Origin: Liolophura sinensis
Taxonomy: Eukaryota; Mollusca; Polyplacophora; Chitonida; Chitonidae
Direction of reading: 5' to 3'
DNA length: 64,000 nucleotides
NCBI RefSeq assembly: GCF_032854445.1
Contig: NC_088305.1
Span: forward strand, 32,513,645-32,577,644
Each line of letters opens with the position of its first letter. Position 1 is the stretch's first letter. Positions 1 through 51,886 of the stretch are shown one piece after another. Position numbers and translations under genes: made by a program. Below the pieces are notes generated by a model. That model worked only from the letters and a program-made list of their open reading frames with translations, was not told the origin of the DNA and did not search any database.

Positions 1-3000
1 AACCATTATTCCTGGAAGGGGCATTGTGAATCATGATGCCCACTTCCTGTAGCAGTAAATCTATAACCATCACTATATACCATTATTACTGGAAGGGACA
101 TTGTGAATCATGATGACTGCTTCCTGTGGCAGTAAATCTATAACCATCACTTTATACCATTATTACTGGAAGAGACATTGTGAATCATGATGACTGCTTC
201 CTGTAGCATTAAATTTATAACCATCACTTTATACCATTATTACTGGAACGGACATTGTGAATCATGATGACTGCTTCATGTAGCAGTAAATCTATAACCA
301 TCACTTTAACCATTATTACTGGAAGAGACACTGTGGATCATGATACCCGCTTCCCGTAGCATTAAATTTATAACCATCACTTTAACCATTATTCCTGGAA
401 GGGGCATTGTGAATCATGATGCCCACTTCCTGTAGCAGTAAATCTATAACCATCACTTTAACCATTATTACTGGAAGGGGCATTGTGAATCATGATGACT
501 GCTTCCTGTAGCAGTAAATCTATAACCATCACTTTATACCATTATTACTGGAAGGGACATTGTGAATCATGATGACTGCTTCCTGTAGCAGTAAATCTAT
601 AACCATCACTTTAACCATTATTACTGGAAGAGACATTGTGAATCATGATGACTGCTTCCTGTAGCAGTAAATCTATAACCATCACTTTATACCATTATTA
701 CTGGAAGGGGCATTGTGAATCATGATGCCCGCTTCCTGTAGCAGTAAATCTATAACCATCACTTTAACCATTATTACTGGAAGGGACATTATGAATCATG
801 ATGACTGCTTCCTGTAGCAGTAAATCTACAAACATCACTTTATACCATTATTAATGGAAGAGACATTGTGAATCATGACGACTGCTTCATGTAGCAGTAA
901 ATCTATAACCAACACTTTAACCATTATTACTGGAACGGACATTGTGAATCATGATGACTGCTTCCTGTAGCAGTAAATCTATAACCATCACTTTATACCA
1001 TTATTACTGGAAGGGACATTGTGAATCATGATGACTGCTTCCTGTAGCAGTAAATCTATAACCATCACTTTATACCATTTTTACTGGAAGGGACATTGTG
1101 AATCATGATGACTGCTTCCTGTAGCAGTAAATCTATAACCATCACTTTATACCATTATTACTGGAAGGGACATTGTGAACCATGACGACTGCTTCATGTA
1201 GCAGTAAATCTATAACCATCACTTTAACCATTATTACTGGAAGAGACATTGTGAATCATGACTGCTTCCTGTAGCAGTAAATCTATAACCATCACTTTAT
1301 ACCATTATTACTGGAAGGGGCATTGTGAATCATGATGCCCGCTTCCTATAGCAGTAAATCTACAAACATCACTTTATACCATTATTACTTGAAGGGACAT
1401 TGTGAATCATGATGCTGGCTTCCTATAGCAGTAAAAATATAACCATCACTTTAACCATTTTTACTGGAAGGGACATTGTGAATCATGATGACTGCTTCAT
1501 GTAGCAGTAAATCTATAACCATCACTTTATACCATTATTACTGGAAGGGGCATTGTGAATCATGATACCCGCTTCCTGTAGCAGTAAATCTATAACCATC
1601 ACTTTAACCATTATTAGTGGAAGGGACATTGTGGATCATGATACCAGCTTCCTGTAGCATTAAATTTATAACCATCACTTTAACCATTATTACTGGAAGG
1701 GGCATTGTGAATCATGATGCCCACTTCCTGTAGCAGTAAATCTATAACCATCACTTTAACCATTATTACTGGAAGGGACATTGTGGATCATGATACCAGC
1801 TTCCTGCAGCATTAAATTTATAACCATCCCTTTAACCATTATCACTGGAAGGGGTATTGTGAATCATGATGCCCACTTCCTGTAGCAGTAAATCTATAAC
1901 CATCACTTTAACCATTATTACTGGAAGGGGCATTGTGAATCATGATGCCCATTTCCTGTAGCAGTAAATCTATAACATCACTTTATACCATTATTACTGG
2001 AACGGACATTGTGAATCATGATGACTGCTTCCTGTAGCAGTAAATCAATAACCATCACTTTATACCATTATTACTGGAAGGGACATTGTGAATCATGATA
2101 CCCACTTCCTGTAGCAGTAAATCTATAACCATCACTTTATACCATTATTACTGGAAGGGGCATTGTGAATCATGATGACTGCTTCCTGTAGCAGTAAATC
2201 TATAACCATCACTTTAACCATTATTACTGGAAGGGGCATTGTGAATCATGATGACTGCTTCCTGTAGCATTAAATCTATAACCATCACTTTATACCATTA
2301 TTACTGGAAGGGGCATTGTGAATCATGATGACTGCTTCCTGTAGCATTAAATTTATAACCATCACTTTAACCATTATTACTGGAAGGGGCATTGTGAATC
2401 ATGATGCCCACTTCCTGTAGCAGTAAATCTATAACCATCACTTTAACCATTATTACTGGAAGGGGCATTGTGAATCATGATGACTGCTTCCTGTAGCAGT
2501 ACATCTATAACCATCACTTTATACCATTATTAGTGGAAGGGGCATTGTGAATCATGATGACTGCTTCCTATAGCAGTAAATCTATAACCATCACTTCATA
2601 CCATTATTACTGGAAGGGACATTGTGAATCATGATGACTGCTTCCTGTAGCAGTAAATCTATAACCATCACTTTATACCATTATTACTGGAAGGGACATT
2701 GTGAATCATGATGACTGCTTCCTGTAGCAGTAAATCAATAACCATCACTTTATACCATTATTACTGGAACGGACATAATGAATCATGATGACTGCTTCCT
2801 GTAGCAGTAAATCTATAACCATCACTTTATACCATTATTACTGGAAGGGACATTGTGAATCATGATGACCGCTTCCTGTAGCAGTAAATCTATAACAATC
2901 ACTTTATACCATTATTACTGGAAGGGACATTGTGAATCATGATGACTGCTTCCTGTGGCAGTAAATCTATAACCATCACTTTATACTATTTTTACTGGAA

Positions 3001-4830
3001 GGAACATTGTGAATCATGAGGACTGCTTCCTGTAGCAGTAAATCATTCAACATAATGGCGACTGTGTTACTTGATCTGGAATTTCGATAATACTATGTTA
3101 TATGGCAATCACAGTCAGTGACTGTGTTAGCTGATCTGGAATTTCCATAATACTATGTTATATGGCAATCACAGTCAATGACTGTGTTACTTGATCTCGA
3201 AATTCTGTAATACTACGTTATACGGCAATCACAGTCAGCAAATTTACTTCATGTAGCAGTAAATCTATAACCACCACTTTAACCATTATTAGTGGACGGG
3301 GCATTGTGAATCATCATGCCTGCTTCATGTAGGAGTAAATCTATAAACACCACTTTATACCATTATTATTGGAAGGGACATTGTGAATCATGATAACTGC
3401 TTCATGTAGCAGTAAATCTATAACCATCACTTTATACCTTTATTACTGGAAGAGACATTGTGAATCATGATGCCCACTTCCTGTAGCAGTAAATCTATAA
3501 CCATCACTTTATACCATTATTACTGGAAGCGACATTGTGAACCATGATGACTGCTTCCTGTAGCGGTAAATCTAAAACCATCACTTTATACCATTATTAC
3601 TGGAAGGGGCATTGTGAATCATGATGCCCACTTCCTATAGCAGAAAATCTTTAACCATCACTTTAACCATTATTAGTGGAAGGGACATTGTGAATCTTGA
3701 TACCCACTTCCTGTCGCAGTAAATCTATAACCATCACTTTATACCATTAGTACTGGAAGAGACATTGTGAATCATGATGCCCACTTCCTATAGCAGAAAA
3801 TCTATAACCATCACTTTAACCATTATTAGTGGAAGGGACATTGTGAATCATGATACCCACTTCCTGTAGCAGTAAATCTATAACCATCACTTTATACCAT
3901 TATTACTGGAAGGGACATTGTGAATCATGATGCGCGCTTCATGTAGCAGTAAATCTATAACCATCACTTCATACCATTATTACTGGAAGAGACATTGTGA
4001 ACCATGATGACTGCTTCCTGTAGCAGTAAATCTATAACCATCACTTTATACCATTATTACTGGAAGAGACATTGTGAATCATGATGACTGCTTCCTGTAG
4101 CAGTAAATCTACAACCATCACTTTATACCATTATTACTGGAAGAGACATTGTGAATCATGATGCGCGCTTCATGTAGCAGTAAATCTATAACCATCACTT
4201 CATACCATTATTACTGGAAGAGACATTGTGAACCATGATGACTGCTTCCTGTAGCAGTAAATCTATAACCATCACTTTAACCATTATTACTGGAAGGGAC
4301 ATTGTGAATCATGATGACTGCTTCCTGTAGCAGTAAATCTATAACCATCACTTTATACCATTATTACTGGAAGAGACATTGTGGATCATGATACCCGCTT
4401 CCTGTAGCATTAAATTTATAACCATCACTTTAACCATTATTACTGGAAGGGGCATTGTGAATCATGATGACTGCTTCCTGTAGCAGTAAATCTATAACCA
4501 TCACTTTATACCATTATTACTGGAAGAGACATTGTGAATCACGATACCCACTTCCTGTAGCAGTAAATCTATAACCAACACTTTATACCATTATTACTGG
4601 AAGGGACATTGTGAATCATGATGACTGCTTCCTGTAGCAGTAAATCTATAACCATCACTTTCTACCATTTTTACTGGAAGGGACATTGTGAATCATGATG
4701 ACTGCTTCCTGTAGCAGTAAATCTATAACCATCACTTTATACCATTATTACTGGAAGGGACATTGTGAATCATGATGACTGCTTCCTGTAGCAGTAAATC
4801 TACAACCATCACTTTATACCATTATTCCTG
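1..4830. repeat. 75-77-bp minisatellite, about 60 copies
   Basis: Head-to-tail units spaced 77 bp (variant with 'ttataccat') or 75 bp (variant with 'ttaaccat'). Each unit carries 'ccattattactggaag', 'cattgtgaatcatgatg', a 'tgtagcagtaaatc' block and 'tataaccatcactt'. Unit starts at 80, 157 and 234 give the period. The array runs off the left edge of the window and is broken once at about 3050-3243 by a different repeat. Read on the minus strand, each unit contains 'ccagtaataatgGTAAAG' or 'GTATAAAG', matching the 5' splice site of the exon at 5806-5929. Units differ at scattered positions and variants are interspersed, as expected from repeated local duplication. Confidence 0.95.
3050..3243. 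repeat. 60-bp unit, three tandem copies inside the 77-bp array
   Basis: Three ~60-bp units containing 'ctgtgttacttgatctgg' and 'tatggcaatcacagtca' interrupt the 77-bp array. The same ~60-bp sequence occurs once at about 5995-6058. On the minus strand that copy lies just upstream of the small exon, so flanking intron sequence has been copied about 2.8 kb away into the array and tripled. Confidence 0.9.
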
Positions 4831-4884
4831 TTGCAGTAACTCCACAAGCCTTACTCACTGTTAATATTGGAAAGAGTCTGGAGA

Positions 4885-5690
4885 ATCATGACACCCACTG
4901 TTACTTAAGATTATTACTTGAAGAGGGACCGGATGAATCATAACACCCATTACATGTACATTGTACAGGTTCATCTACAACTGTTACTTACGATTATTAC
5001 TTGAAGAGGGACCGGATGAATCATGACACCCATTACATGTACATTGTACAGGTTCATCTACAACTGTTACTTACGATTATTACTTGAAGAGGGACCTGAT
5101 GACTCATAACACCCATTACATGTACATTGTACAGGTTCATCTACAACTGTTACTTACGATTATTACTTGAAGAGGGACCGGATGAATCATAACACCCATT
5201 ACATGTACATTGTACAGGTGCGTCTACAACTGTTACTTACGATTATTACTTGAAGAGGGACCTGATGAATCATAACACCCATTACATGTACATTGTACAG
5301 GTGCGTCTACAACTGTTACTTACGATTATTACTTGAAGAGGGACCTGATGAATCATAACACCCATTACATGTTCATTGTACAAGTGCGTCTACAACTGTT
5401 ACTTACGATTATTACTTGAAGAGGGACCGGATGAATCATAACACCCATTACATGTTCATTGTACAAGTGCGTCTACAACTGTTACTTACGATTATTACTT
5501 GAAGAGGGACCTGATGAATCATGACACCCATTACATGTACATTGTACAGGTTCATCTACAACTGTTACTTACGATTATTACTTGAAGAGAGACCTGATGA
5601 ATCATAACACCCATTACATGTACATTGTACAGGTGCGTCTACAACTGTTACTTACGATTATTACTTGAAGAGGGACCTGATGAATCATGA
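4885..5690. repeat. 83-bp minisatellite, about 10 copies
   Basis: Unit starts ('gattattacttgaag') at 4909, 4992 and 5075 give an 83-bp period. Units are nearly identical and contain 'acatgtacattgtacagg'. The block 'attattacttgaagaggga...tgaatcatgacaccca' is homologous to the 77-bp unit, so the two arrays are diverged subfamilies of one ancestor. On the minus strand every unit contains 'aataatcGTAAGTaac', a consensus 5' splice site. Confidence 0.93.
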
Positions 5691-5805
5691 CACCCATTTT
5701 GTATTGAGGTAAATCTATAACTACTGCTCACCGTTATGACTGGAAGGAACTTAGTGAATCATGACACCCATTTTGTATTGAGGTAAATGTATAACCACTG
5801 CTTAC
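5690..5805. repeat. Junction-proximal units linking the exon to the arrays
   Basis: One full unit and part of a second, about 73 bp each, bridge the 83-bp array and the exon at 5806-5929. They share 'aatcatgacacccattttg' and 'tgaggtaaat' with each other and with the 3' part of the exon. This stretch shows that the minisatellites and the exon end are one repeat family. Confidence 0.8.
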
Positions 5806-5929: not shown

Positions 5930-6062
5930 TGTCTCCTCCTTACCAACACTAACTCTGTACAAAAAAAAAACTTTACTCTGTATAAAATAATAATTCTATG
6001 TTATATGGCAATCACAGTCAATGACCATGTTACTTAATCTGGAATTTCTGTAATACTGTACC

Positions 6063-7014: not shown

Positions 7015-7017
7015 TAA

Positions 7018-7128: not shown

Positions 7129-7164
7129 CCCCCACCCAATGATATGACATATCAAGATAATGAG

Positions 7165-10403: not shown

Positions 10404-10427
10404 ATGAATGCAATTGCCTCACAACAG
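10404..10427 (+). CDS. CNOT9: CNOT9 coding exon 1 (24 nt, residues 1-8)
   Basis: ATG in a good context (tccaaaATGa) encodes MNAIASQQ and stops at a donor CAG|GTAGGT. Splicing to the acceptor 'ttgttgagcag' at 12924 adds PR and continues in frame into [11 protein letters not shown]. Frame, donor and start context agree, but there is no conservation evidence for these eight residues, so an initiator at 12931 remains possible. Confidence 0.6.
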
Positions 10428-13400
10428 GTAGGTAAAGCTGTATACTACTCTTACAATATCATTTAAATTCCTGAGAGCGCCCATGTCTCCTTTGCTTGTG
10501 AAATTTTCGCGTTTATCATCATTGGTGGTGCTGTTGTTGTTGTCACTGTTTATTGTCTATTATCCACTTTATAGCCCAGTTTGGATGTTGTTTGTTGAGT
10601 GGTAAGCTCACAACGCTTAGCGCGCTATTGCAAGTATGGAGACATTGTGGATGTCTTTGTCAGTACATAAAGCTTCATTGTGGCTTAAAGGGCTTTCCTC
10701 GTTGTGTTGAAAATTCCGTGCGTTAACGAAAATTGAGCCACAGAAGCTTTTATCTACACACATACTTTATCATACAGTACGAGTTAGTACGTGTGGAGAG
10801 ACAAGATTGGACTAGGGGTAGCTGAAAACTTGTGTGAACTGAGCATTGGTCATTGCGTTTATATTATTACTTCATATTGCTGTTAGCAACCTTTGGATAG
10901 CAGTGGGTTTTGTCCAAACTCTGCCGGGTTTCCTCCAACCACGATGCTGGCCGCCATCGTATAAATGAAATATTCTTGAGTGCAGCGTAAAACACCAGTG
11001 AAATAAATTACTTTGTTCTGCGTAGCATTAATGTAAAATTTTGGATGTAATGATACATTATTAAGGCAGAACTTGCTGTCATTTGATAGACTGACAGTTG
11101 AGAGTCCTCCTCAAAGTCGAGACGGGGCCTTCGTGGCCTCAGGTGGCGCACCAGCAAAGTGCAGTGACGAAGGTGCCTCTCACTAATGCGGTTGCTATAA
11201 GTTCAAGTCTAGCTCATGCTGGCTCTCTCTCTTGCCGTAAGTGGGAAGGTCTTCCAGCAGCCTGCGGATGGTCATGGGTTTCCCCTCACTATAATGCTAG
11301 CCGTCCTCGTATAAGTGAAATATTCTTGTGTATGGCATAAAACACCAATCAAATAAATAAATAAATCAGAGTTGGGGAAATCAGGGAGTAAACCCAAGTC
11401 AGGTCATACCAAAGACTTTAAAAATGGCACTTGCTGCCTCTAGCTTGCTTGGCACTCAACACTGGGAAGTTAGAGCAGTCCTGACTGCTTGGATGGATGA
11501 CTGGGTGGGTGTCATGCCTGGTGTCTTCTGCATGATTCCTCAGTGGCAGCATCACTTTGGCAGCATGGACTCACCCTGCCTCAAGAAGACGCAGTATATA
11601 CATACACTAAGTGAATCCTCGTCATCATATAACTAAAAATTTGTCGAGTATGACAGATCAGTTGGTACGTCAGTCATGTTGAGAAACTGACACTTTCTTA
11701 AAATTTGTTATTTGAGTATCTCAAGCTATACAACAGTTCAACATGCAACAATGGACAACACTGATGTTTTGAAAGCTTATTATGGAGTGAGGTAGAAGTC
11801 TGAAGTGCCAGATGCTTTTAAAATGACAAGGAATTGACATTCTGACAGTGAGTTGATACGTTTTGGCACGAAAGATCAAACACAGGTGTGCTTGTGCATG
11901 CTGTCACATGTAAAAATGTTGACATTGTGACAGTTGTAAGGCACAATTGTTAGATATGGAATTACCACTCATATACTCCAAGGAATAAGATAAAAATTGA
12001 CCAGAAGCCGGCATGAATGTAATTCCACAGACGCTTGTACATAATACAGTTGGTGTGCTTGTGCATGCTGTCACATGTAAAAATGTTGACATTGTGACAG
12101 TTGTAAGGCACAATTGTTAGATATGGAATTACCACTCATATACTCCAAGGAATAAGATAAAAATTGACCAGAAGCCGACATGAATGTAATTCCACAGACG
12201 CTTGCACATAATACAGTTTTGCCTCAGATTTTCATTCTGTCAACATTCTCATTGGAAGGCTCTGTTCCCATACTATGGACGCATTTCTCCGGCCATACAT
12301 GAAGAGGTCTGATAGCAAACTGCAGATGGTCATGGGTTTCCCCCAAGCTCTGCCCGGTTTCCTCTCACCATAATGCTGGTATGAGTGAAATATTCTTGAG
12401 GGCAGCTTAAAACACCAATCAAATAAATAAAAAATAAAGTAAATGTTTACGTCCTCTCCTCTGTGAACTAGACCTTACCTGATATTAAAGATTCACAGCC
12501 AATTTCTTGTCTAAACTGTAACAACTTGCTGCATTTGATGTTGGCACTTCCCCAAAGAGTTACTGCAAGCTTTACCTGGTCGATCAGAAGCACATTCTGC
12601 TGGTGTACTCGCTCAGCTTGCAGTCCACAATATTTTTCAGCAGACTTAACTGCCCATACCCTGCCACATTGTTGTGGTGACCATTCCATCCACGTTTCCT
12701 CTATATGAGAAAGGGTAACCTGTCTTACTTGCTCCAGACTTAGTCCAGCTGTAAACTTGAGACGTGACACAAGTAGATATGCGTGAATTTGCCCCATTTT
12801 GTCATCCACTACACTTACAACACCACAGCATTTTAATAACAGAGAGGTTTAGTAACATTCCATTGTTTTAAAACTTCAGATTATAAGTAAACTTACAACA
12901 TGCCTATTTTGTGTTGTTGAGCAGCCAAGGATGTTAAACCCTGCACAGCCCGGACCAGCTGCAGCCAGCTCTCTACCACAGGTGGACAGAGAGAAGATTT
13001 ACCAGTGGATTGTCGAGCTGACCAGTCCTGACACCAGGGAGAACGCTCTACAGGAGCTCAGGTGCTTAGCTGAAAAGTGCAAACATTTCCAGTTGTGCTA
13101 AAATAGTGACTTATTACTGTCCTAATTTAAGGTGTGCTGCATGTATCACGTACCCACACCTAGCAACCTCCTGAACAAAGTCTAACAAAGTAGCCTAGTG
13201 AGACACACCTAAATCAAAAATCTGGGGAGAATGAATATAGGTGTGCAATCCACACTTCTGGTCTTTTGCAAGGTGTGGTAAACACACTCCTGCTCAAACA
13301 CACATACACAACTGTAGGTCTGCCATAAACATCTTTATTTTGCAAGTTGTCACACTTTTTGATGTGTCTCAGAAGCCCAGATGGATGATTGAAGTGTACC

Positions 13401-16400
13401 CTTTCAGTCAGACTTGACTAATTATCACACATTATTGCCTTACATTGTTACAGTTACATGTATTTTTAAATGTCAGAAATTAGAAATGGTTGTGGGTTTC
13501 CCCCAGGCTCTGTTCGGTTTCCTCCCACCATAAACCTGACCGCCATCATATAATTGAAATGTTCTTTAATACTTTAACCCACCAATAGAATAAGTAAATA
13601 AAATTGCTAAAAATGTTTTCGTTAGAATGTAACTTGACAGACCCTCCCCGAAAGTCCCTACTCTTTTAGGTTTTGTTGGCAGTTCAATAAAAGCTTTTCT
13701 TAATGCTGATTTCTTTAAAACCCCTATCGTTTTTAGTAGCCAGAGCGTTCACTTATTATTCTTTGTTCTGTTGACAGCAAGAAGAGAGAAGTTGTGCAAG
13801 ACTTGGCACCTATGTTATGGCATTCTTTTGGAACCATAGCTGCTTTGCTGCAAGAGATCATCAATATTTACCCAGCCATAAACCCTCCTCATTTGACGGT
13901 AGGCACCCGATTTCAGTTGACTTATTCCTTTTTTTACTGTTTGGAAGGGGTTATGGTACAGTATTGTGACAATGTAGCATTTTTAATATGCAAGCATTAT
14001 CAGGCAGGCTCATTTGACATATTAAAGATGGTGTGTTATGTTATGATGCTGTATTTCAGGCTCAATAGCGTAATAGAATGTCCTTGTGCTGTATTTCAGG
14101 CTCAAGTTAGCATAAGAGGATGTGTGGTGGAGCTGTATTTCAGACTCATTAGCCTAATAGAATGTGTCTTGATGCTGTATTTCAGGCTCATTAGCCTAAT
14201 AGAATGTGCCTTGATTCTGTATTTCAGGCTCATTAGCCTAATAGAATGTGTCTTGATTCTGTATTTCAGGCTCATTAGCCTAATAGAATGTGCCTTGATT
14301 CTGTATTTCAGGCTCATTAGCCTAATAGAATGTGTCTTGATTCTGTATTTCAGGTTCATTAGCCTAATAGAATGTGTTTAGGTGATGTATTTAAGGTAAA
14401 TAGTAGCGCATTTTCCTTCCTATTTATGTGGTAAATTTGTCAACTTCAACGTCAAAAATATACATCCCTAGATTTTTGTATGATACCATGCCAACATATC
14501 CAAAAGTCAAACTAGCATGACTACCATTTTTTTCAACTGCGGCTGTTGGAAGTGAAGCTACAACAGCTTGTTACTTTGGTAAGAACACTGGGCAAAAAGT
14601 TTTCATTTATATCCAAAACACTGTGTCTGTGTAGCATTACTGTATTATTCAGTCAGTGGTCCTTCACACTTCTGTTACGAGACAAATTTGGGTCTCAGTT
14701 GCCCAAATTCCACAACTAAGGGCATAATACCATTGCCCAACCTTAAGGCTCATCGGTCTTACGTGTGCCAGAATATCTTTCAGGTTATAACTGAGTATTT
14801 TCAGGTCCACTGGTCTTACCAGAAATGTTTTAGTGCTGTATTTCAGGTTATAACAGAATGTATTTTAGGGCTGTATTTTAGGTTACAACAATGTATTTTG
14901 TTGCTCTATTTCAGGCTCACCAGTCTTATCAGAATGTGGTTTGATGCTGTTTTTCAGGCTCACTGGTCCTGTCAGAGTATGCTTTGGTGCTTTATTTCAG
15001 ATTCACTGATCCTATCAGAATGTGTTTTGGTGCTGTATTTCAGGTTCACCAGTCATATCAGACTGTGTTTTGGTGCCGTATTTCAGGTTATAACAGGATG
15101 TATTTTGTTGCTGTATTTTAGGTTACAACATTGTATTTTGTTGCTTTATTTCAGGCTCGCCAGTCTTATCAGAATGTGGTTTGATGCTGTTTTTCAGGCT
15201 CATTGGTCCTGTCAGAGTGTGCTTTGTTGCTGTATTTCAGATTCACTGAATCTATCAGACTGTGTTTTGGTGATGTATTTCAGGTTACAACAATGTATTT
15301 TGCCATATTTCAGGTTCACTGGTCCTATCAGAATGTGTTTTGGTGCTTTATTTCAGATTCACTGATCCTATCAGACTGTGTTTTGGTGCTGTATTTCAGG
15401 TTACAACAATGTATTTTGCCATATTTCAGGTTCACTAGTCCTATCAGACTGTGTTTTGGTGCCGTATTTCAGGTTACAACAATGTATTTTGCCATATTTC
15501 AGGTTACAACAATGTATTTTGCCATATTTCAGGTTCACTAGTCCTATCAGACTGTGTTTTGGTGCCGTATTTCAGGTTACAACAATGTATTTTGCAATAT
15601 TTCAGGTTCACTAGTCCTATCAGACTGTGTTTTGGTGCCGTATTTCAGGTTACAACAATGTATTTTGTTGCTGCATTTCAGGCTCATCAATCTAACAGAG
15701 TGTGCAATGCCCTCGCTCTGCTCCAGTGTGTTGCCTCCCATCCAGAGACCAGGTCTGCTTTCCTACAAGGTGAGCTGACTCCTTGCTGTTACTGTCGTAA
15801 GAGCTCACGATCCATTCGTAGTGGCTCAATTTCCTCTCTTTTAGTCACCCACAGTTCTCCCAAACTTATATTGCATGGACTTGTGTACTCTCATTGGGAA
15901 GGTGGCAAAGTGATGCATCACTGAAAACAAGCAGCTCGACACCGTGCTGGTTTGGAAACCACAGTGGCACCTCCTCAGATTTTAATTTACGAATTACATT
16001 AAACTAGAATTAGTGTAATTCTAGAATGTTCTGAATGGTTGCATTGTTGGTCAGAAAACATTCTTTCTGATCAACACGTTGTTTTCTCCCACAATTAAGG
16101 ACATAATGAATGCATTGCTGCTGATTTAGTCTTATCCCTATCACTGTACTTGACAGTTTAATGCCCACAAATGCCAATGAATCCAGTCTCGTATCACCCT
16201 CTTTACCAGTCACAAAGGTCAATTAAAAACACTCGGGAATGTCATAAAGACAATATCACGGTAGGCATTCTCCACGGCTGGGTGTGGAGGCATAGAAGCT
16301 TTTTCTGTAGCATACAGTGTCTGAAATCTAACACATAGGTGGAGAATGTCGACCACATGGTTCACTGTGGAGATTTACTTTTTAATTTTGACAGAACTGT

Positions 16401-19400
16401 CTGCTTTAAATCTTGCATGTACGCTAGCTTGCAGAACTTAGGTGTAGACACAAATCTTCAGGCGTATACTGCACTATATTAGAAGGGTATCTAGTTTTTT
16501 AAGCGTAGTTACGCTTGTACGCCCCTTGTGTGTAGCACTGCATACATTGTGTCATGGAAGTTACAGCTGCTGCATTTTGCAACTCCATTGAAAACCGGCC
16601 TGAAAGGATGAATTCATGAGGGTTGTGTAAGACAGGCCAGGTACATCTGTCCCCAGAGCCATCTATGTTCTGTCACTGTATAAATAGGGCTGCTGACCAT
16701 ATAAAATAAATACACATATAGACAGAGTGCAATCCATGGTGATTTAAATATTGACCACCAAATTTCATGAAGTGTGGTAATCATTGTTCTCACTTGATTC
16801 TGATCAAGCCACTGTGCTAGGGGTGTATACATTGCTGCTATTTAACCATCAGTACATGAATACATACATCATCACTGCCCTCTGAATATTCTTATATAAG
16901 AGAGATAGCTTGGATTTTGAGCACCTCTCCAGCAATGACCATACAGATATATGTACTAGCACCTTGATTGTCTTCCATGTGTACATGTATTTGTCTGTCT
17001 TTGCAGCTCACATACCATTGTTTCTGTATCCATTCCTACATACGGTCAGCAAGACACGGCCTTTTGAGTACCTCCGGTTGACCAGCCTAGGGGTCATTGG
17101 AGCTCTTGTCAAGGTAAGTAAAAGCAGTAGACAGTGTACAGTACACATCCAGGCTTACCAGGGTACCGAGGACCTTGCTAGTTGAGCAAATATTAGTTTC
17201 ACACCATTTAATAATAAAGGGAATTGAGACAAATATATGTAATGTTTTTCTTTATGTCGAAAGAAGGTACATATCTACGTATTTGCTACTGATTGGCAAT
17301 AATTGCCCCTATTCAGATGAGGGCTGTGTATAACCCAGTTGGGACCTGCCGAACGCCAGCCAGCAGGAACTTGACATCAAATAATCCTTTCTTTGCTCAT
17401 CATGACAACATTCACATTAATTCATTTATTTGTTCTATCGGTGTTTTACGTTCTACTCAAGAGTATTTCTCTCACACAGTGGCGGCCAGCACTATGGTGG
17501 GATAAAACTGAGCAGAGCCCAGGGGAACCCACGAACATGCGCAGAACATCGCATTTAAGACAGCGTGGCCTTTACAACAGAAACTCAAACATTTTAGACG
17601 TTGTGTTATTATCCATTTTGGACATAACAATGGCTCAATGTTCTGCTTCACTTAGGCATCATCTAGCGGATTTTAGAAATATGCTGTCTGCCCATTCCAA
17701 CGCTAAGCGTACCTGATTTGAGAAACGGGTCAACAACCTGCCAGTTCAGGTGGCCAAGCAAATCAGACACTGCTAGCCAGTTCAGGTAGTCAAGTGAATC
17801 GAATACTGCTAGCCAGTTGGAAGTGGTCAAGTAAATCAGATACTGCTAGCCAGTTCAGGTGGTGATGTAAATCAGATACTGCTAGCCAGTTGAAGTAGTC
17901 AAGTAAATCAGACACTGCTAGCCAGTTGAAGTGATCAAGTAAATCAGACACTGCTAGCCAGATCAGGTGGTGATGTAAATCAGACACTGCTAGCCAGTTC
18001 AGGTAGTCAAGTAAATCAGACACTGCTAGCCAGATCAGGTGGTGATGTAAATCAGATACTGCTAGCCAGTTCAGGTGGTGATGTAAATCGAATACTGCTA
18101 GCCAGTTGGAAGTGGTCAAGTAAATCAGACACTGCTAGCCAGTTCAGGGTAGTCAAGTAAATCGAATACTGCTAGCCAGTTGGAAGTGGTCAAGTAAATC
18201 AGACACTGCTAGCCAGTTCAGGTGGTGATGTAAATCAGATATTGCTAGCCAGATCAGGTGGCCAGGTAAATCAGACACTGCTAGCCAGTTCAGGTAGTCA
18301 AGTAAATCGAATACTGGCAGCCAGTTGAAGTGGTCAAGTAAATCAAATGCTGCTAGCCAGTCGAAGTGGTCAAGTAAATCAAATACTGCTAGCCAGTTCA
18401 AGTGGTCAGGTAAATCAAATACTGTTAGCCAGTTCAAGTGGTAATGTAAATCAAATACTGCTAGCCAGTTGAAGTGGTCAAGTAAATCAAATACTGCTAG
18501 CCAGTTGAAGTGGTCATGTAAATCAGATACTGCTAGCCAGTTGAAGTGGTCAGGTAAATCAAATACTGCTAGCCAGTTGAAGTGGTCAAGTAAATCACAT
18601 TCTGCTAGCCAGTTGGAGTGGTCAAGTAAATCAAATACTGCTAGCCAGTTCAGGTAGTCAAGTAAATTGAATACTGCTAGCCAGTTGAAGTGGTCAAGTA
18701 AATCAAATACTGCTAGCCAGTTTAGGTGATGATGTAAATCAACTACTGCTAGCCAGTTCAGGTGGTGATGTAAATCAAATACTGTTAGCCAGTTGAAGTG
18801 GTCAAGTCAGTCAAGTACTGCTAGCTTGTTGAAGTGGCCAGGTAAATCAGATACTGCTAGCCAGTTTAGGTGGTGATGTGAATCAGATACTGCTAGCCAG
18901 TTCAGGTGGTGATGTAAATCAGATACTGCTAGCCAGTTCAGGTGGTGATGTAAATCAGATACTGCTAGCCAGTTCAGGTGATCAGGTAAATCAGATACTG
19001 TTAGCCAGTTGAAGTGGTCAAGTAAATCAGATACTGCTAGCCAGTTTAGGTGGTGATGTAAATCAGATACTGCTAGCCAGTTCAGGTGGTGATGTAAATC
19101 AGATACTGCTAGCCATTTCAGGTGATCAGGTAAATCAGATACTGCTAGCCAGTTGAAGTGGTCAAGTAAATCAGATATTGCTAGCCAGATCAGCTGGTGA
19201 TGTAAATCAGATACTGCTAGCCAGTTGAAGTGGTCAAGTAAATCAGATACTGTTAGCCAGTTGAAGTGGTCAAGTAAATCAGATACTGCTAGCCAGTTCA
19301 GGTGGTGATGTAAATCAGATACTGCTAGCCAGTTGAAGTGGTCAAGTAAATCAGATACTGCTAGCCAGTTGAAGTGGTCAAGTAAATCAGATACTGCTAG

Positions 19401-22400
19401 CCAGTTGAAGTGGTCAAGTAAATCAGATACTGTTAGCCAGTTGAAGTGGTCAAGTAAATCAGATACTGCTAGCCAGTTGAAGTGGTCAAGTAAATCAGAC
19501 ACTGCTAGCCAGTTGAAGTGGTCAAGTAAATCAGACACTGCTAGCCAGTTGAAGTGGTCAAGTAAATCAGACACTGCTAGCCAGTTGAAGTGGTCAAGTA
19601 AATCGAATACTGCTAGCCAGTTGAAGTGGTCAAGTAAATCAGATACTGCTAGCCAGTTGAAGTGGTCAAGTAAATCAGATACTGCTAGCCAGTTGAAGTG
19701 GTCAAGTAAATCAGATACTGCTAGCCAGTTGAAGTGGTCAAGTAAATCAGATACTGCTAGCCAGTTGAAGTGGTCAAGTAAATCAGATACTTCTAGCCAG
19801 TTTAGGTGGTCAAGTAAATCAGATACTGCTAGCCAGTTGAAGTGGCCAGTTGGAAGTGGTCAAGTAAATCAGACACTGCTAGCCAGTTCAGGTGGTGATG
19901 TAAATCAGATATTGCTAGCCAGATCAGGTGGCCAAGTAAATCAGACACTGCTAGCCAGTTCAGGTAGTCAAGTAAATCGAATACTGCTAGCCAGTTGAAG
20001 TGGTCAAGTAAATCAAATGCTGCTAGCCAGTCGAAGTGGTCAAGTAAATCAAATACTGCTAGCCAGTTCAAGTGGTCAGGTAAATCAAATACTGTTAGCC
20101 AGTTCAAGTGGTAATGTAAATCAAATACTGCTAGCCAGTTGAAGTGGTCAAGTAAATCAAATACTGCTAGCCAGTTGAAGTAGTCATGTAAATCAGATAC
20201 TGCTAGCCAGTTGAAGTGGTCAAGTAAATCACATTCTGCTAGCCAGTTGGAGTGGTCAAGTAAATCAAATACTGCTAGCCAGTTCAGGTAGTCAAGTAAA
20301 TTGAATACTGCTAGCCAGTTGAAGTGGTCAAGTAAATCAAATACTGCTAGCCAGTTTAGGTGGTGATGTAAATCAAATACTGTTAGCCAGTTGAAGTGGT
20401 CAAGTCAGTCAAGTACTGCTAGCTTGTTGAAGTGGCCAAGTAAATCAGATACTGCTAGCCAGTTTAGGTGGTGATGTAAATCAGATACTGCTAGCCAGTT
20501 CAGGTGGTGATGTAAATCAGATACTGCTAGCCAGTTCAGGTGGTGATGTAAATCAGATACTGCTAGCCAGTTTAGGTGGTGATGTAAATCAGATACTGCT
20601 AGCCAGTTCAGGTGATCAGGTAAATCAGATACTGTTAGCCAGTTGAAGTGGTCAAGTAAATCAGACACTGCTAGCCAGTTTAGGTGGTGATGTAAATCAG
20701 ATACTGCTAGCCAGTTGAAGTGGTCAAGTAAATCAGATACTGCTAGCCAGTTGAAGTGGTCAAGTAAATCAGATACTGCTAGCCAGTTGAAGTGGTCAAG
20801 TAAGTCAGATACTTCTAGCCAGTTGAAGTGGTCAAGTAAATCAGATACTGCTAGCCAGTTGAAGTGGTCAAGTAAATCAGATACTGCTAGCCAGTTGAAG
20901 TGGTGATGTAAATCAGATACTGCTAGCCAGTTGAAGTGGTCAAGTAAATCAGATACTGCTAGCCAGTTGAAGTGGTCAAGTAAATCAGATACTGCTAGCC
21001 AGTTGAAGTGGTCAAGTAAATCAGATACTGCTAGCCAGTTGAAGTGGTCAAGTAAATCAGATACTGCTAGCCAGTTGAAGTGGTCAAGTAAATCAGACAC
21101 TGCTAGCCAGTTGAAGTGGTCAAGTAAATCAGATACTGCTAGCCAGTTCAGGTGGTGATGTTCAGGCTTATAATAATAATATCTTTATTTATTGAAGGTA
21201 ACTCAGTCAATTTGTACAAAACTGTCTTTTCCCCAGGGCCTTCAGAGATAAAGACAAAACAATACATAGAAACAGTTAAACAATGACAAAGCACACAGGT
21301 GCTTTGTCACGCCATGCTTGTCCGATCCCGCCACATCTGTTCCAACCAGCAGGTCAGACAGTATAGTGGGAGACGGCCCCTTCCCTCCCCTTCCCGCCCT
21401 GCCTACTGGCTGGAACCCGCTACACACTTGTACAAAGCACAAACCAAGTGGGTGGGAGATGGCCTCATTCCCATCCCCCATTTGAAGTGATACTTTTTAT
21501 GCCAACACTAACTTTTCTGATAGGACATTAATCAGTCTTCATGGTGGTGGGTTTCCCCCGGCTGTGCCCGGTTACCACCCACCATAACGCTGGCCGCCAT
21601 CATATATGGGAAATATTCTTGAGTACGGCGTAAAACAGCAATCAAATAAATAAATAAATAATCAATCTTCACAACAATCGCCCTGTAAGGTCGACGAATG
21701 AGTCAAAGCCAAACAAAATGTCTTACTTGAAAAATACTTAACTTTTAGGTCATATACAGTAAGGACATGTCATACATGATCCCTGCTAGTTAAATTAATC
21801 AGCCTTTTGATCAGAGGTCGGTTTCACAAAAGTTGATAAGTTCAGTTAATTATTTAAGTCCAACATTGAGTGTTCGTTGGCAGAGCTGAAGTCAGATACT
21901 TCATAAGTGCAGAATCGTGTTGCTCAAGCAAAACACTTTTTGCAAAGCTTTCTAATAGTCTACATAAGGACATGCTTTTAGTAGTGTACATGTGGACAAC
22001 ATTTTAGTAGTCTACATGTAAATCTTATTTGGCCACACATTTAGTAGTCTAATTTGGCCACACATTTAGTAGTCTAATTTGGCCACACATTTAGTAGTCT
22101 AATTTGGGCACACTTTTAGTAGTCTAATTTGGCCACACATTTGGTAGTCTAATTTGGTAGCACTTTTAGTAGTCTAATTTGGCCACACATTTAGTAGTCT
22201 AATTTGGCCACACATTTAGTAGTCTAATTTGGGCACACTTTTAGTAGTCTAATTTGGGCACACTTTTAGTAGTCTAATTTGGTAGCACTTTTAGTAGTCT
22301 AATTTGGGCACACTTTAAGTAGTCTGAATTGGGCACCTTATTCACAGTCTAATTTGGGCACTCTTTTTGTAGTCTAATTTGGGCACACTTTTAATAGTCT

Positions 22401-25400
22401 AATTTGGGAACACTTTTAGTAGTCTAATTTGGGCACACTTTAAGTAGTCTGAATTGGGCACCTTATTCACAGTCTAATTTGGGCACACTTTTAGTAGTCT
22501 AATTTGGGCACACTTTTAGTAGTCTAATTTGGGCACACTTTTAGTAGTCTAATTTGGGAACACTTTTAGTAGTCTGAATTGGGCAACCATTTAGCAGTCT
22601 TAATTTGAACTCACAGGGACTGCATTGGTGAAAGGCTTTTAATTCTGGGTCATTACTAACCCCCTCAGCCTTGGAGGTCCTCACTTTTATTGTTAAAGTT
22701 CCATACATATCTTAGTAAAATCAGTGAACATGATTAGAGGGAGTTCTTTCATATACTCAAGTCGTGTGCTGTAGTATTGCCACGTAAAAGGAAAACATGA
22801 ATGAGGTTGAACATGAAGTCTAGAAGGCATTGAATTGAGTACAAGAACAGTGTCAAGATCAAACCAATCCTATTTGAACATGGTGTAAATATACAGATAT
22901 ACTTTTACAACTAATCCTACTTGTACATGTTGTAACTGTACAGATATACTTTTACAACTAATCCTACTTGTACATGTTGTAAATATACAGATATACTTTT
23001 ACAACTAATCCTACTTGTACATGTTGTAACTGTACAGATATACTTTTACAACTAATCCTACTTGTACATGTTGTAACTGTACAGATATACTTTTACAATT
23101 AATCCTACTTGTATGTGTTGTAACTATACAGATATACTTTTACAACTAATCCTACTTGTACATGTTGTAACTATACAGATATACTTTTACAACTAATCCT
23201 ACTTTTAGGTGTTGTAAATATACAGATATACTTTTACAACTAATCCTACTTGTACATGTTGTAACTGTACAGATATACTTTTACAGTTAATCCTACTTGT
23301 ACATGTTGTAACTGTACAGATATGCTTTCACAGAAACATGATCAAACACAGTATTTGACATGAGTGGAAAGATTTATTTATTTATTTGATTGGTGTTTCA
23401 TGCCAGACTCAAGATTTGGGTGGAAAGAAATTCATTTTAATGATGGTAATGCTGTATGTTTGTTTTTGCCACAGACTGATGAACAAGAAGTGATCAACTT
23501 TCTGCTTACCACCGAGATTATTCCCCTTTGTTTGCGGATAATGGAAGCGGGCAGCGAGCTTTCAAAAACAGTGAGTACAAGCTTAAGACTTTCAGATTGG
23601 CATTCTGGCATAGTAGGGGAGTTTCAGGTTCAGTTTTTGTTAGTCGCTGAAGATAAATGAAGTCCTGCTGTACAAGGTAACCTGTCAGAAATCTTAGGCA
23701 ACTTTTTATCACATAAAATGTAGTGTATGTAAATACTATAAAATGGCTGTCTAAAAAATGTTTCACAGAAGTTATTTTATAGATTAAATGGACATTGGCC
23801 AGCATTGAGGAGCTGATTGTGAACTGAATATTGAGGAGCTGATTGTGAACTGAATATTGAGGAGCTGATTGTGAACTGAATGACTGTCATTCTATAAACT
23901 TGTTGCATATGTGCAAGGTCTTTATGCAAAGGATATTCTGAGAACATTATTGTGGGTAGTCTGATAAAAATTATTTTTTTGTGAAGTTCAGAAATTGTCA
24001 ACCCAACAAATTTAGTTTTGTCTCTGAAAGCAAATTAAAAAAGTGTATAAGCCTCACTAAGAGTTGCTCTTTCATATGCAAAACCTTTGAGGAAGTAGGG
24101 CAGTTCCTGAAGGAAAGAGGTAGCATATATGTGCCTTGGGAACATGGTGAGACAGATAATCAGTCGGCAAAACAGCTAAAGTTTCCAAACATTTTTGACA
24201 TTGAAGTTAGATGATACAGTAGAGCTTTCTTTAACTTTAGAGAGAGTTTGATAAGACTTTAAGGTCAAATCTCCCCTGTGGGAGGTAGTTAGTATAAGAC
24301 ATACCACCATATGTGTCAACAAATTCAGGTTGATTTGTTTAGTTCTGTGTACTGCTGTTTAATAAATAATTGAATAACTAATAAAGAGGCAAAAGTGCTG
24401 TGACTGTCTTGGGTTTACCACTGCTCAAAGAATACACTGATCTTAACAAGGATGCAGATGCCAGCTGGGTATCCACAAAGCTACGAATCTTGTGTTGTGA
24501 TTAAAAAATTAGGGCATTTAAGACGTTTCAAACTGAATTGGTACTCTGAGGTACGCTGAGGCCGGTAATTTACTACAGCTCTCCAGTTTTCACCATTCTT
24601 AAACCTGACTGCTGTAATATAAGTGAAAAATTCTTGAGTACAGCATTAAACAACCATTGAGGTAAAAAATGAACAAATATAAAGGCAAATAACAATGTTC
24701 ATGAATTTTAAAAATACAAATTTTTCAGGTATATATTTAACTAGTACAACTTGTTTCTTTTTTGTTTGTTTTATTTTTTACACTGGAACTGCTCTCAGGA
24801 AGGTTAAAAAAGTTTTTCTTATGGTTCCTAAACATTTTTAAAAAGTTGTGATTGGTGGTGGTTTGTTGAAACCTGTATATGTATGTTTGATGGAGATTTT
24901 TACACCTGTGTGTGTTTGTGAGTAGTACATATATGTAAGTTTATGTGGACAGTTTCATGATCACATTTATCTATCATTCTTCATTTACAGGTAGCCACAT
25001 TTATCCTCCAGAAGATACTCCTGGATGAAACGGGTCTGTCCTACATCTGCCAGACCTATGAGCGCTTCTCACACGTGGCCATGATTCTGGTAAGAGTTCA
25101 GGAATTGGGGTCACCTCCCTTTCCACGGGGGGAGGGGTGGATGGGGGAGGTGTATATTCTCACATTGGATTCTAAATGAGCTGACTCAAAATTAATTAGT
25201 ACACACTTCACAGTCTTATAGAGTGTATTTGTCTTGTATTAGTGAAAACTCCTTTAGTAATGATAATGGTTTTGCTCACCAAGCAGGGCATGGGGGGAAA
25301 GTCGGAAAGAGCTCACTATAGAGGGACATTCAAAGACATACATACTTGTACATGCATCCGTTCATTTGTACATCCATCCATTCACTCATTTGTACATCTA

Positions 25401-27576
25401 TTCATTCATTGGTACATTCATCCATACATTCATCCGTTCATTTGTGTATCCATCCCTTCACTCATTTGTACCTTCAGCCATTCATTTGTTTCTACATTCA
25501 TCTGTTTGTTTGTACATCTGTTTATTTGTACATTCATCCTTTCATTTGTACATTATAATTGGGAAGGGCTGCATCAACCTGCAGATGGTCGTGGGTTTCC
25601 CCCCCGGGCTCTGCCCAGTTTCCTCCCACCATAATGCTGGTCGCTATCATATAAGTGAAATATTCTTGAGTATGGCGTAGAACACCAATCAGATAAATCA
25701 AATAAATACATCATTTGTACATTCATCCATTCGTTGGTATATTCATCCATTCACTTATACATTCAACCATTTATCCATCCATTTATTTGTGAACTCAACC
25801 ATTTATTTGTGAACTCAACCATTTATTTGTACATTCATCTATTTATTTGAACATGTACATTCATCCATTCATTAGATTCAGTATCATTTGTGGATACATT
25901 GTAGCAGCAGTATAATTTTATAACTGTTGTTTCTTCTCCAGTTGCACGGGGGAAGGTCCACCAGCAACCTGCAGATATGCATTGATTTCTCTCCTGCTCC
26001 CACCCTAATATTAGCCACCGTCATATAGGTGAAATAGCTCAGATAAATATTGCTGCTGCTGTTGTTGTTGTGACAGGGTAAGATGGTGCTTCACTTGTCC
26101 AAAGAGCCTTCAGCCAGACTCCTCAAGCATGTGGTCAGGTGCTATCTACGATTATCTGATAATCCCAGGTAAAACGACTGCCCTAATCACACCTCAGGTG
26201 TTATCTACAACTCTCTGATCAATCGTGGTAAAATGTCGCCACCACTCCTGTCTAAACTGCCTTAATCACACCTCAGGTGTTATCTACAACTCTTTGATCA
26301 ATCGTGGTAAAGTGTCGCCACCACTCCAGTGTAAACTGCCTTAATCACACGTCAGGTGTTATCTACAATTCTCTGATCAATCGTGGTAAAATGTCGCCAC
26401 CACTCCAGTGTAAACTGCCTTAATCACACGTCAAGCGTTATCTACAACTCTCTAATCAATCGTGGTAAAGTGTCGCCACCACTCCAGTGTAAACTGCCTT
26501 AATCACACCTCAGGTGTTATCTACAACTCTCTGATCAATGGTGGTAAAATGTTGCCACCACTCCAGTGTAAACTGCCTTAATCACACGTCAAGCGTTATC
26601 TACAACTCTCTAATCAATTGTGGTAAAGTGTCGCCACCACTCCAGTGTAAACTGCCTTAATCACACGTCAAGCGTTATCTACAACTCTCTAATCAATCGT
26701 GGTAAAGTGTCGCCACCACTCCAGTGTAAACTGCCTTAATCACACGTCAGGCGTTATCTACAACTCTCTGATCAATCGTGGTAAAATGTCGCCACCACTC
26801 CAGTGTAAACTGCCTTAATCACACGTCAGGCGTTATCTACAACTCTCTGATCAACCGTGGTAAAATGTCGCCACCACTCCAGTGTAAACTGCCTTAATCA
26901 CACGTCAGGTGTTATCTACAACTCTCTGATCAATCTTGGTAAAATGTCTTAATCACACGTCAGGTGTTTAATGTTAAGATACCATTTTTCATATTGATAC
27001 CAATGCTGTACAAGTTGTGTATAAAGGTTTGAATTGATATAATTTGAGGTTCAAAAATTCTGCATTTCACCTTATGTTTGCTTGTAAAGATGTACTTAAA
27101 GGCCTGAAAATGATACATTTCAGGCTGACGTGTCAGTTTTTGTAATAAGAAATTAATTATACTTCACAAAAAAAAAAATAGAAATATGCTAACCTTTAGT
27201 TGAAATACAGTAAGGCTTACATTGTGGGCAAGATTTTGACTTGCATGCTACTGTTGGGAGCTGCGGCCTCAAACTGTAAAGGGAAATATTGAAAAAGGCT
27301 AGGCTTCTGAGATTGGTGGTTAGGATTTTATCGAATAGTAACACATCTGATTTTACAAGAGGAATCGTTTACCTCACCCTATACTCGACCGTTTGTAATT
27401 GCAGGGCTCGTGAGGCATTACGGCAGTGTCTCCCTGACCAGCTGAAGGACAACACATTTGGGACATGCCTGAAGGATGACAACTCCACCAAACGCTGGTT
27501 GATGCAACTCCAGCAGAATCTTGAGACGCCCAGTGTACCAGACCCACGTGGTATGCCGTTACATCAACAACAATGA
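10404..27576 (+). CDS. CNOT9: CNOT9 (RCD1/RQCD1), CCR4-NOT complex subunit, complete
   Basis: CNOT9 is the armadillo-repeat subunit of the CCR4-NOT deadenylase. It binds the CNOT1 scaffold and offers tryptophan pockets to GW182/TNRC6, linking miRNA targets to deadenylation. Nine coding exons join in frame: 10404-10427, 12925-13061, 13778-13898, 15682-15769, 17007-17113, 23475-23570, 24991-25089, 26077-26168 and 27405-27576, giving 311 aa (human is 299). All junctions are GT-AG. Diagnostic stretches include [98 protein letters not shown] and QCLPDQLKD. Only the N-terminal ~25 residues and the C-terminus differ clearly from vertebrates. Exon 1 is inferred; the first in-frame ATG in exon 2 (12931) would give 301 aa. 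Introns 3 and 8 carry minisatellites built from copies of adjacent splice junctions, and intron 5 (6.4 kb) carries three further arrays. Confidence 0.96.
10890..11009 (+). mobile_element. SINE, 3' half
   Basis: Contains 'cagtgggttttgtcc', 'ctggccgccatcgtataa', 'gaaatattcttgagtg' and 'aaaacaccagtgaaataaat'. It lacks the tRNA-like head, so it is 5'-truncated. It lies in CNOT9 intron 1. Confidence 0.8.
11127..11368 (+). mobile_element. SINE, near full-length
   Basis: The head 'gtggcctcaggtggcgca' and 'gcggttgctataagttcaag' looks like tRNA-derived A- and B-box promoter sequence. The body is 'ctcatgctggctctctctc' and 'gcctgcggatggtcatggg', and the tail is 'aaatattcttgtgtatgg' followed by (AATA)n. 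About 240 bp, in CNOT9 intron 1. Confidence 0.85.
11424..11662 (+). mobile_element. SINE of a second type sharing the same tail
   Basis: The body ('tgcttggcactcaacactgg', 'tgactgggtgggtgtcatg') differs from the first SINE family, but the end 'tcgtcatcatataactaaa' and 'aatttgtcgagtatgac' is a diverged copy of the tail seen at 48714-48790. No clear tRNA-like head. Confidence 0.6.
11886..12219. repeat. 167-bp tandem duplication
   Basis: Two nearly identical 167-bp copies abut ('gtgtgcttgtgcatgctg' at 11886 and 12053). The few differences point to a recent duplication. It lies in CNOT9 intron 1 and has no coding signal. Confidence 0.92.
12303..12438 (+). mobile_element. SINE, 5'-truncated
   Basis: Contains 'ctgcagatggtcatgggt', 'ctctgcccggtttcctctc', 'gaaatattcttgaggg' and an 'aatcaaataaataaa' tail. 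Part of the 'gctggccgccgtcgtat' block is deleted. Confidence 0.82.
12468..12809 (-). CDS. Unidentified coding-like segment inside CNOT9 intron 1, antisense
   Basis: An uninterrupted minus-strand frame of about 113 codons with coding-like composition: charged amphipathic text such as [19 protein letters not shown] and [18 protein letters not shown]. There is no ATG at its head (the frame opens with GTG); a 3' splice site is possible at 'gtgtag' near 12807. A good donor, ATATCAG|GTAAGG, lies at about 12474/12473. It could be an internal exon of a gene nested antisense in CNOT9, or a fossil exon or retrocopy. I do not recognise the family and find no partner exons. Confidence 0.3.
   Translation of the reverse strand: MDDKMGQIHAYLLVSRLKFTAGLSLEQVRQVTLSHIEETWMEWSPQQCGRVWAVKSAEKYCGLQAERVHQQNVLLIDQVKLAVTLWGSANIKCSKLLQFRQEIGCESLISGKV
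13484..13602 (+). mobile_element. SINE, 5'-truncated and diverged
   Basis: Contains 'ggttgtgggtttcccccagg', 'ttcggtttcctcccaccata', 'gaccgccatcatataattg' and a degraded tail ending 'aagtaaataaaat'. In CNOT9 intron 2. Confidence 0.8.
14040..14390 (+). repeat. 42-bp array of copies of the CNOT9 exon 4 acceptor, first block
   Basis: Eight or so units spaced mainly 42 bp apart, each holding 'ctgtatttcag|gctcatta' and 'gcctaatagaatgtg'. The true exon 4 junction at 15681/15682 is 'ctgcatttcag|gctcatca' followed by 'atctaacagagtgtg'. Each unit is thus a copy of the 3' splice site plus the first ~23 bp of exon 4. In the phase of exon 3, most copies give A-H-stop. Because 42 is a multiple of 3, the block stays open in some other frames, which is not evidence of coding. 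Confidence 0.9.
14760..15681 (+). repeat. Acceptor-copy array, second block, ending at the true exon 4 junction
   Basis: About 22 further units of two kinds: ~43 bp ('tgctgtatttcag' then 'gttcactggtcctatcagaa') and ~30 bp ('catatttcag' then 'gttacaacaatgtatttt'). They alternate in compound patterns. The last unit is the functional acceptor of CNOT9 exon 4. Units at 14907 and 15147 ('caggctcaccagtcttatca') are closest to the exon start. Between the blocks (14391-14759) the intron is unique. Confidence 0.92.
17419..17540 (-). mobile_element. SINE, 5'-truncated
   Basis: Minus-strand copy: 'ccatagtgctggccgccact', 'aaatactcttgagtaga' and 'aaaacaccgatagaac' are recognisable. In CNOT9 intron 5. Confidence 0.78.
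17736..21160. repeat. 36-bp minisatellite, about 95 copies
   Basis: The unit is 36 bp ('gccagttgaagtggtcaag' then 'taaatcagatactgcta') with variants 'ttcaggtggtgatg', 'ttgaagtagtc' and 'ttcaggtgatcagg'. A higher-order structure is present: the variant order at about 18175-18840 recurs at about 19850-20437, offset by about 1.67 kb at first and 1.60 kb later, so the second copy has lost two units. Because 36 is a multiple of 3 and the unit has no stop in several frames, frames up to 255 codons (12-residue period such as [12 protein letters not shown]) run through it on both strands; I read these as by-products. It fills much of CNOT9 intron 5. Confidence 0.96.
21166..21490 (-). mobile_element. 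Possible retroelement 3' end, unclassified
   Basis: The left edge is a 'aataataatatctttattta' run, which on the minus strand is a 3' tail. Inside are two related segments ('tctgttccaaccagcaggtc' and the inverse of 'ctactggctggaacccgct') flanking a C-rich stretch, giving an imperfect inverted arrangement. This fits a SINE or LINE end but no family is certain. Confidence 0.35.
21538..21662 (+). mobile_element. SINE, 5'-truncated
   Basis: Contains 'ggtgggtttcccccggctgt', 'aacgctggccgccatcatat', 'aaatattcttgagtacggcg' and an (AATA)n tail. One of the better preserved 3' halves in the window. Confidence 0.87.
22010..22605. repeat. 25-bp minisatellite, about 23 copies
   Basis: The unit holds 'tagtctaatttgggcacac' and 'ttttag', with 'ggccacacat' and 'ggtagcac' variants. 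In CNOT9 intron 5, with no similarity to the flanking exon edges. Confidence 0.93.
22865..23335. repeat. 47-bp minisatellite, about 10 copies
   Basis: The unit contains 'actaatcctacttgtacatg' and 'tgtacagatatactttta'. Copies differ by one or two bases. In CNOT9 intron 5, shortly upstream of exon 6. Confidence 0.93.
23370..23412 (-). mobile_element. SINE tail fragment
   Basis: Only 'atttatttatttgattggtg' and 'ccagactcaag' remain, the minus-strand 3' tail of the main SINE family. Confidence 0.55.
23796..23881. repeat. 27-bp repeat, three copies
   Basis: Three tandem copies of 'attgaggagctgattgtgaa' plus 'ctgaat' in CNOT9 intron 6. Confidence 0.9.
24570..24662 (+). mobile_element. SINE remnant, strongly diverged
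   Basis: 'taaacctgactgctgtaata', 'agtgaaaaattcttgagtac' and 'agcattaaacaaccattgag' align to the 3' half of the main SINE family. In CNOT9 intron 6. Confidence 0.6.
25340..25890. repeat. Degenerate 'catttgtacattcatc' array split by a SINE
   Basis: Irregular short units such as 'catttgtacattcatcc', 'ttcatttgttt' and 'catttatttgtgaactcaac' occupy 25340-25557 and 25710-25890. The SINE between them inserted into the array. In CNOT9 intron 7. Confidence 0.85.
25558..25709 (+). mobile_element. SINE inserted in the 'catttgtacat' array
   Basis: Contains 'ctgcagatggtcgtgggt', 'ctctgcccagtttcctccca', 'gaaatattcttgagtatggc' and 'acaccaatcagataaatc'. Array units flank both sides. Confidence 0.88.
25941..26048 (+). 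mobile_element. SINE fragment, internally deleted
   Basis: 'gggggaaggtccaccagcaa', 'cctgcagatatgcattg', 'agccaccgtcatataggtga' and a short 'cagataaata' end. It lies just upstream of CNOT9 exon 8. Confidence 0.7.
26169..26965 (+). repeat. 79-bp array of copies of the CNOT9 exon 8 end and donor
   Basis: About ten units, 79 bp apart (26196, 26275, 26354 and so on). Each begins 'aggtgttatctacaactctc' and continues 'tgatcaatcgtg|GTAAAATG' or 'GTAAAGTG'. The end of exon 8 reads 'aggtgctatctacgattatc', 'tgataatcccag|GTAAAACG'. The exon frame gives [11 protein letters not shown] and the unit gives [11 protein letters not shown]-stop, so the repeat carries coding sequence and a 5' splice site copied from the exon. 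The founder interval (26137 to 26196) is 59 bp because it lacks a ~20-bp 'caccactccagtgtaaac' insert present in the other units. Confidence 0.94.
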
Positions 27577-51833: not shown

Positions 51834-51886
51834 CCTCTCTCTGTACAAACCCACTTACAATGTTTCTCTTTACCTCATAAACTCGC

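Follow-up and report, generated by a model that had tools for sequence, protein, structure and literature searches.

Minisatellites that copy the adjoining exon-intron boundary in genes of a chiton: a mirage-type repeat in a mollusc

Introduction

Three long minisatellites abut exons in a 64,000-nucleotide stretch of the genome of the chiton Liolophura sinensis (hereafter the window), and the question that they raise is why each of them should copy the very splice junction beside which it lies. The answer that we regard as highly probable is that they are mirage-type minisatellites, in which a duplication spanning the junction was tolerated and then expanded in the intron.

Papers citing the original work (PMC3087553) state that the name mirages was coined for lancelet Adh3, in which tandem repeats extend over exon-intron boundaries. 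The lancelet globin paper describes mirages that have units of 150-160 bp and occur at 5′ as well as 3′ boundaries, offers a model of intron gain and reports RT-PCR suggesting that splicing ignores the decoys (PMC3087553). A paper on PGBD5 (PMC3902484) describes 60- and 108-bp repeats across splice sites, with a citation of troponin C. The sequence-only reading of the window that we followed up had held that no named class of repeats answers to this definition, which is contradicted by these publications on lancelet genes. In potato, a new intron was made by tandem duplication across an intron-exon boundary (PMC4974935), and a review describes tandem duplication as the sole route of intron gain with in vivo support (PMC3443670). 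In the titles and abstracts of the open-licence literature searched, no report of mirages outside lancelets was found, molluscs included. The repeats described here are a known kind in a new occurrence, in another phylum.

Results

Genes and exon models

The genome searched comprises 609 Mb in 632 contigs, and the window is part of contig G000:C11. The host COX1 (447 residues, translation table 5) matches that of Acanthochitona defilippii at 94% and that of Callochiton at 93%, some gastropods also reaching 93% (best 120 of 7998 matches). SINE pieces, considered as markers of the taxon, yielded nothing. Seven COX1 copies spaced about 15.5 kb apart lie on contig G000:C99, a concatemer of mitochondrial genomes that perhaps was produced by the assembly; a separate mitochondrial contig, C632, measures 15,209 bp.

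The arrays of the window, named A1 to A3, and the genes are listed in Table 1. The joined reading frame of CNOT9 is conserved with respect to the human protein. The identity of ATG9 was taken from its later exons, within the 30 kb to the left of the window (loci L002-L004). Exon 1 of this gene ends in phase 1, which is matched by exon 2 (ARWNHIKNLDDFFTRVY), found left of the window in L002, where the protein continues as ARWNHIKN; hence the donor beside A1 is genuine. No Pfam match over the cut-off was obtained for the last exon of the transporter-like gene. A1 to A3 sit within introns, with conserved exons on both sides, and the models of CNOT9 and ATG9, drawn from this genome alone, contain no extra exon. 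Two further elements were observed in this part of the window. The segment 7180-8780, between ATG9 and CNOT9, looks by eye like the decayed remains of a DNA transposon, in which the ends are inverted and some frames resemble a transposase, and at 11885-12218, in CNOT9 intron 1, a 167-bp segment occurs twice with 98% identity, a young simple tandem duplication.

Table 1. Location of genes, exons and junction arrays (window positions unless another locus is named; TRF, Tandem Repeats Finder)
Feature	Location	Strand	Description
A1, ATG9 intron 1	1-5805 (TRF 2-5847)	minus	77-, 83- and 74-bp units
ATG9 coding exon 1	5929-5806	minus	41 codons + 1 nt; donor at 5805/5804
CNOT9 (RCD1/RQCD1)	10404-27576	plus	9 exons; human CNOT9/RCD1 match E 2.6e-162; Pfam Rcd1 E 2.4e-129
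A2, CNOT9 intron 3	14044-15681 (TRF 14044-15667)	plus	42/43-bp and 30-35-bp units
CNOT9 exon 4	15682-15769	plus	first 24 nt copied in A2
CNOT9 exon 8	26077-26168	plus	A3 copies about 35-50 nt of its end
A3, CNOT9 intron 8	26169-26965 (TRF 26177-26948)	plus	79-bp unit, about 10 copies (9.8)
Transporter-like gene	about 33041-39367	plus	MFS label by appearance
Galaxin-like gene	about 49594-51834	minus	repeat protein; Pfam PF24748 E 5.9e-80 (49594-50978)
Cytochrome P450 exon	about 55815-56362	plus	
ATG9 exon 13 array, intron 12	L004 7586-9688 = G000:C11:32491231-32493333 (outside the window)		21 copies of a 99-bp unit

Three arrays in register with their junctions

The sequence-only reading had proposed that the three arrays, which prove to lie at ATG9 exon 1 and at CNOT9 exons 4 and 8, each copy the boundary that they adjoin, and a register test bore this out at all three. 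In this test the units were extended over the junction into the exon, and the null was provided by 400 random non-array positions per array, none of which reached the score of the array concerned. A1 scored 40 when all 61 units were taken and 38 when only the 25 on which the null was based were taken, the null maximum being 9. A3 scored 21 across 51 nt (null maximum 11), and A2, for which 20 of the 34 anchors were used and the short-unit type was excluded, scored 14 across 24 nt, 19 of them matching (null maximum 11). Taken without register, the similarity of A2 to the exon is weak, being equalled by 16 of 500 shuffles and by 233 of 2050 control positions.

A2 consists of about 30 copies of the acceptor region of CNOT9 exon 4, and Tandem Repeats Finder reported no array between window positions 14397 and 14825, while the unit of A3 is a copy of the donor region of exon 8. 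A1 holds in its interior a different 60-bp repeat (3060-3238) and runs on to the left of the window, from L002:9197, reaching a total of about 6.6 kb and 82 units. When the units of A1 to A3 were compared with the whole genome by DNA search, all 93 matches fell at their own three sites, a lower bound given that the search omits very common words. Each junction has a unit of its own. The independence that the same reading had claimed for the arrays is supported, and its further propositions also held: both types of site are involved, ATG9 exon 1 and CNOT9 exon 8 being donors and CNOT9 exon 4 an acceptor, and expansion took place on the intron side.

Further junction arrays at ATG9 exon 13 and at kinase exons

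A fourth array (A4) lies in ATG9 intron 12. Its unit comprises the polypyrimidine tract, the acceptor and, from exon 13, about 50 nt; the product of this exon is RNVAFFMGSILAVLVVLTV. A sample was also taken of 40 of the 138 protein-kinase matches in the genome, with 700 bp of flank on each side; the exons were hand-chosen for short open frames with the sequence unseen, 37 of them being of at most 135 aa and the rest of up to 179. Six loci were inspected as sequence and 34 were judged by Tandem Repeats Finder alone, so that short or degenerate cases may have been missed among the latter.

Junction arrays were found, on other contigs, at four of these 40 exons. Register is kept over all 33 exon nt in the acceptor array of L029 and over 43 nt in the donor array of L036, and in both cases none of 400 random positions reached the same value. 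The other two are weaker: about 12 nt are clear in the acceptor array of L028, reached by 1 of 400 random positions, and the donor array of L043 was reached by 15 of 400 when gaps were excluded and by 1 of 1000 when a local test with gaps was used (27 nt). An array 16 nt beyond the donor of L053 has no match in register and was left uncounted as a near miss. In the kinase sample 12 arrays were counted, and eight of them make no contact with the exon. The units of the ATG9 exon 13 and L029 arrays gave 29 genome matches, at least, all 29 at their own junctions. Donors are accordingly represented by ATG9 exon 1, CNOT9 exon 8, L036 and L043, and acceptors by CNOT9 exon 4, ATG9 exon 13, L029 and L028.

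Frequency of junction arrays against random placement

Junction arrays occur at 8 of 134 boundaries (6%, exact interval 2.6-11.4%), four of them among the 54 boundaries of CNOT9, ATG9 and the transporter, galaxin and P450 genes and four among the 80 of the kinase set, which provides a first frequency estimate for arrays of this kind. Coding-score gene finding over the surrounding 294 kb (G000:C11:32383646-32677644, the window included) recovered only 4 of the 9 CNOT9 exons; for this reason the extra 200 kb, for which no exon set was available, were left out of the 134 boundaries. The edges of the arrays in those 200 kb yielded no further clear junction case. The introns of ATG9 also contain long arrays with units of 31, 30, 32, 53, 62 and 39 bp and no obvious junction origin.

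The frequency bears on whether minisatellites of this mollusc arise preferentially at splice junctions, with arrays at roughly one boundary in twenty, several-fold above random placement, a proposition to which we give close to, although under, an even chance. Its main competitor, a serious one that falls further short of even, is that there is no preference: duplications would land anywhere, those within exons would be purged, and those spanning a boundary would survive as edge cases. The founding step is common to both and only the frequency differs. Minisatellites fill 16% of the 294 kb (61 loci), an abundance that favours edge cases. In a model of random placement, in which the observed arrays were relocated with at most one unit allowed within an exon, ATG9 outside intron 1 showed no excess, with one junction array against 0.74-0.94 expected. 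Against the absence of preference, the window holds three against 0.22-0.31 expected (P 0.00025-0.0025). The kinase set, where exon edges are the ends of profile matches with an error of up to about 15 nt, points the same way, with four against 0.71 for an overlap of at least 5 nt (P 0.0028) and three against 0.58 for at least 12 nt by Tandem Repeats Finder ends (P 0.016). Pooled, there are 8 against 1.96 expected (Poisson P 0.001), and 5 against 1.65 (P 0.027) once the three cases of the sequence-only reading are removed, both P values resting on summed expectations from unlike overlap thresholds.

A plainer check put forward with that reading, the recurrence of exon ends in the adjacent intron, gave a weak outcome that agrees with edge cases: the exon-end 50-mer recurred in the flank with a score of at least 42 at 3 of 54 boundaries, against 1.93% of 1500 control positions, little excess; the positions of the control matches suggest that they include dispersed repeats. 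Taken together, an enrichment of arrays at junctions is likely but modest. Of the genome-wide process that had been suggested, the recurrence stands, at ATG9 exon 13 and at four of 40 kinase exons, and such a process is plausible, whereas its being directed to junctions receives modest support. The specific cause advanced in the sequence-only reading, hot spots at junctions arising through slippage or template switching, for example in transcription-coupled repair, would account for the modest enrichment, but other causes could yield the same enrichment, and we consider it improbable.

Discussion

Relation to mirages and to other tandem duplications

The arrays share with lancelet mirages, as these are described in PMC3087553 and PMC3902484, tandem units that span the exon-intron boundary in register, the involvement of both 5′ and 3′ exon boundaries, the retention of AG or GT in many units, and growth on the intron side with the boundary copy outside the homogenization. 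They differ in the host, a mollusc and not a lancelet, and in the greater length of some arrays, such as that of ATG9 intron 1. The characters of lancelet mirages also include undisturbed splicing, as RT-PCR suggests, and instability of length among haplotypes or in somatic cells; the chiton arrays are known from the DNA of one assembly. The founding duplication, like that of the potato case and those in the review of intron gain (PMC4974935, PMC3443670), would extend across a splice junction and take its signals along, but here there are many copies in place of one extra and no new intron is seen. In unit size, copy number and internal homogeneity the arrays resemble ordinary intronic minisatellites, from which they are set apart by a unit that takes in the end of the adjacent exon together with the splice site.

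Origin and evolution of the arrays

We propose that each array was founded by a short tandem duplication across a splice site, separately at each junction. After duplication of a donor the original site would stay first, and after duplication of an acceptor the original would stay last. If the exon-proximal original site is still the one used, the mRNA would be unchanged and the extra copies would be intron; since the copies could be removed by splicing, leaving an intact mRNA possible, the duplication would be nearly neutral and tolerated. Splicing would thus proceed normally past the decoys in this genome. The intronic copies would then be multiplied by slippage or unequal exchange, while selection on the coding sequence would keep the exon copy single, and homogenization would act among the copies in the intron and pass over the one in the exon.

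The divergence of the units fits this sequence of events. Mean identity between unit and exon is 97% in L029, 86% in A1, 83% in the ATG9 exon 13 array, 77% in L036, 75% in A3 and 73% in A2, and in none of these six arrays does identity rise or fall significantly as units lie farther from the exon (for A2, over 20 of 34 anchors). Varied divergence without a distance trend is what separate founders followed by intronic homogenization are expected to leave. Outward copying from the exon was also considered and is rejected, the trend with distance being absent in all six.

The repeated splice sites could instead have been retained for a function, for example as decoys that tune splicing. AG is present in all 34 acceptor-like anchors of A2, as defined by a pattern that allowed three changes, and GT in 10 of 10 A3 units and in 59 of 59 units of the 77-bp block of A1. 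However, the other columns are conserved about equally, and the combined P over four arrays is 0.10, not significant, in a test that took the site of A4 with an offset of one base and did not include the 83-bp block of A1 (G in 9 of 10). Such retention is in our view quite unlikely.

Less likely still is exonization, by which the array would come first and the end of the exon would derive from it. About 60 nt of ATG9 exon 1 are similar to the A1 unit and lie in a poorly conserved N-terminal stretch, as exonization would have it. Against it, the residues copied from CNOT9 exons 4 and 8 are identical in the human protein, so these exons predate the arrays and seeded them. Exon 13 of ATG9 likewise aligns with human ATG9A at the corresponding place, copied residues included. 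In the case of ATG9 exon 1, too, the direction was probably from exon to array. Two other readings, the insertion at exon borders of a dispersed repeat, whether satellite or mobile element, and an artefact of assembly, found no support and are together most improbable. The unit differs at each junction, and the junction arrays lie on several chromosome-sized contigs. The units of the five arrays searched are, among the matches obtained, private to their own junctions, which argues against a dispersed repeat of either kind.

Significance

The arrays carry a practical warning for gene prediction: in a single ATG9 intron there are 21 decoy acceptors, and behind every one of them the true start of the exon is repeated. 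In lancelets, mirages were proposed as raw material of new introns from few genes in a single lineage (PMC3087553). Several chitons have reference-quality genomes according to PMC12005716, so that the age of the arrays, their turnover and a passage to a new intron would be traceable in this group. If the preference for junctions is true, mirages would be a recurrent class across distant phyla and not a peculiarity of lancelets, and they would constitute a steady source of duplicated splice sites.
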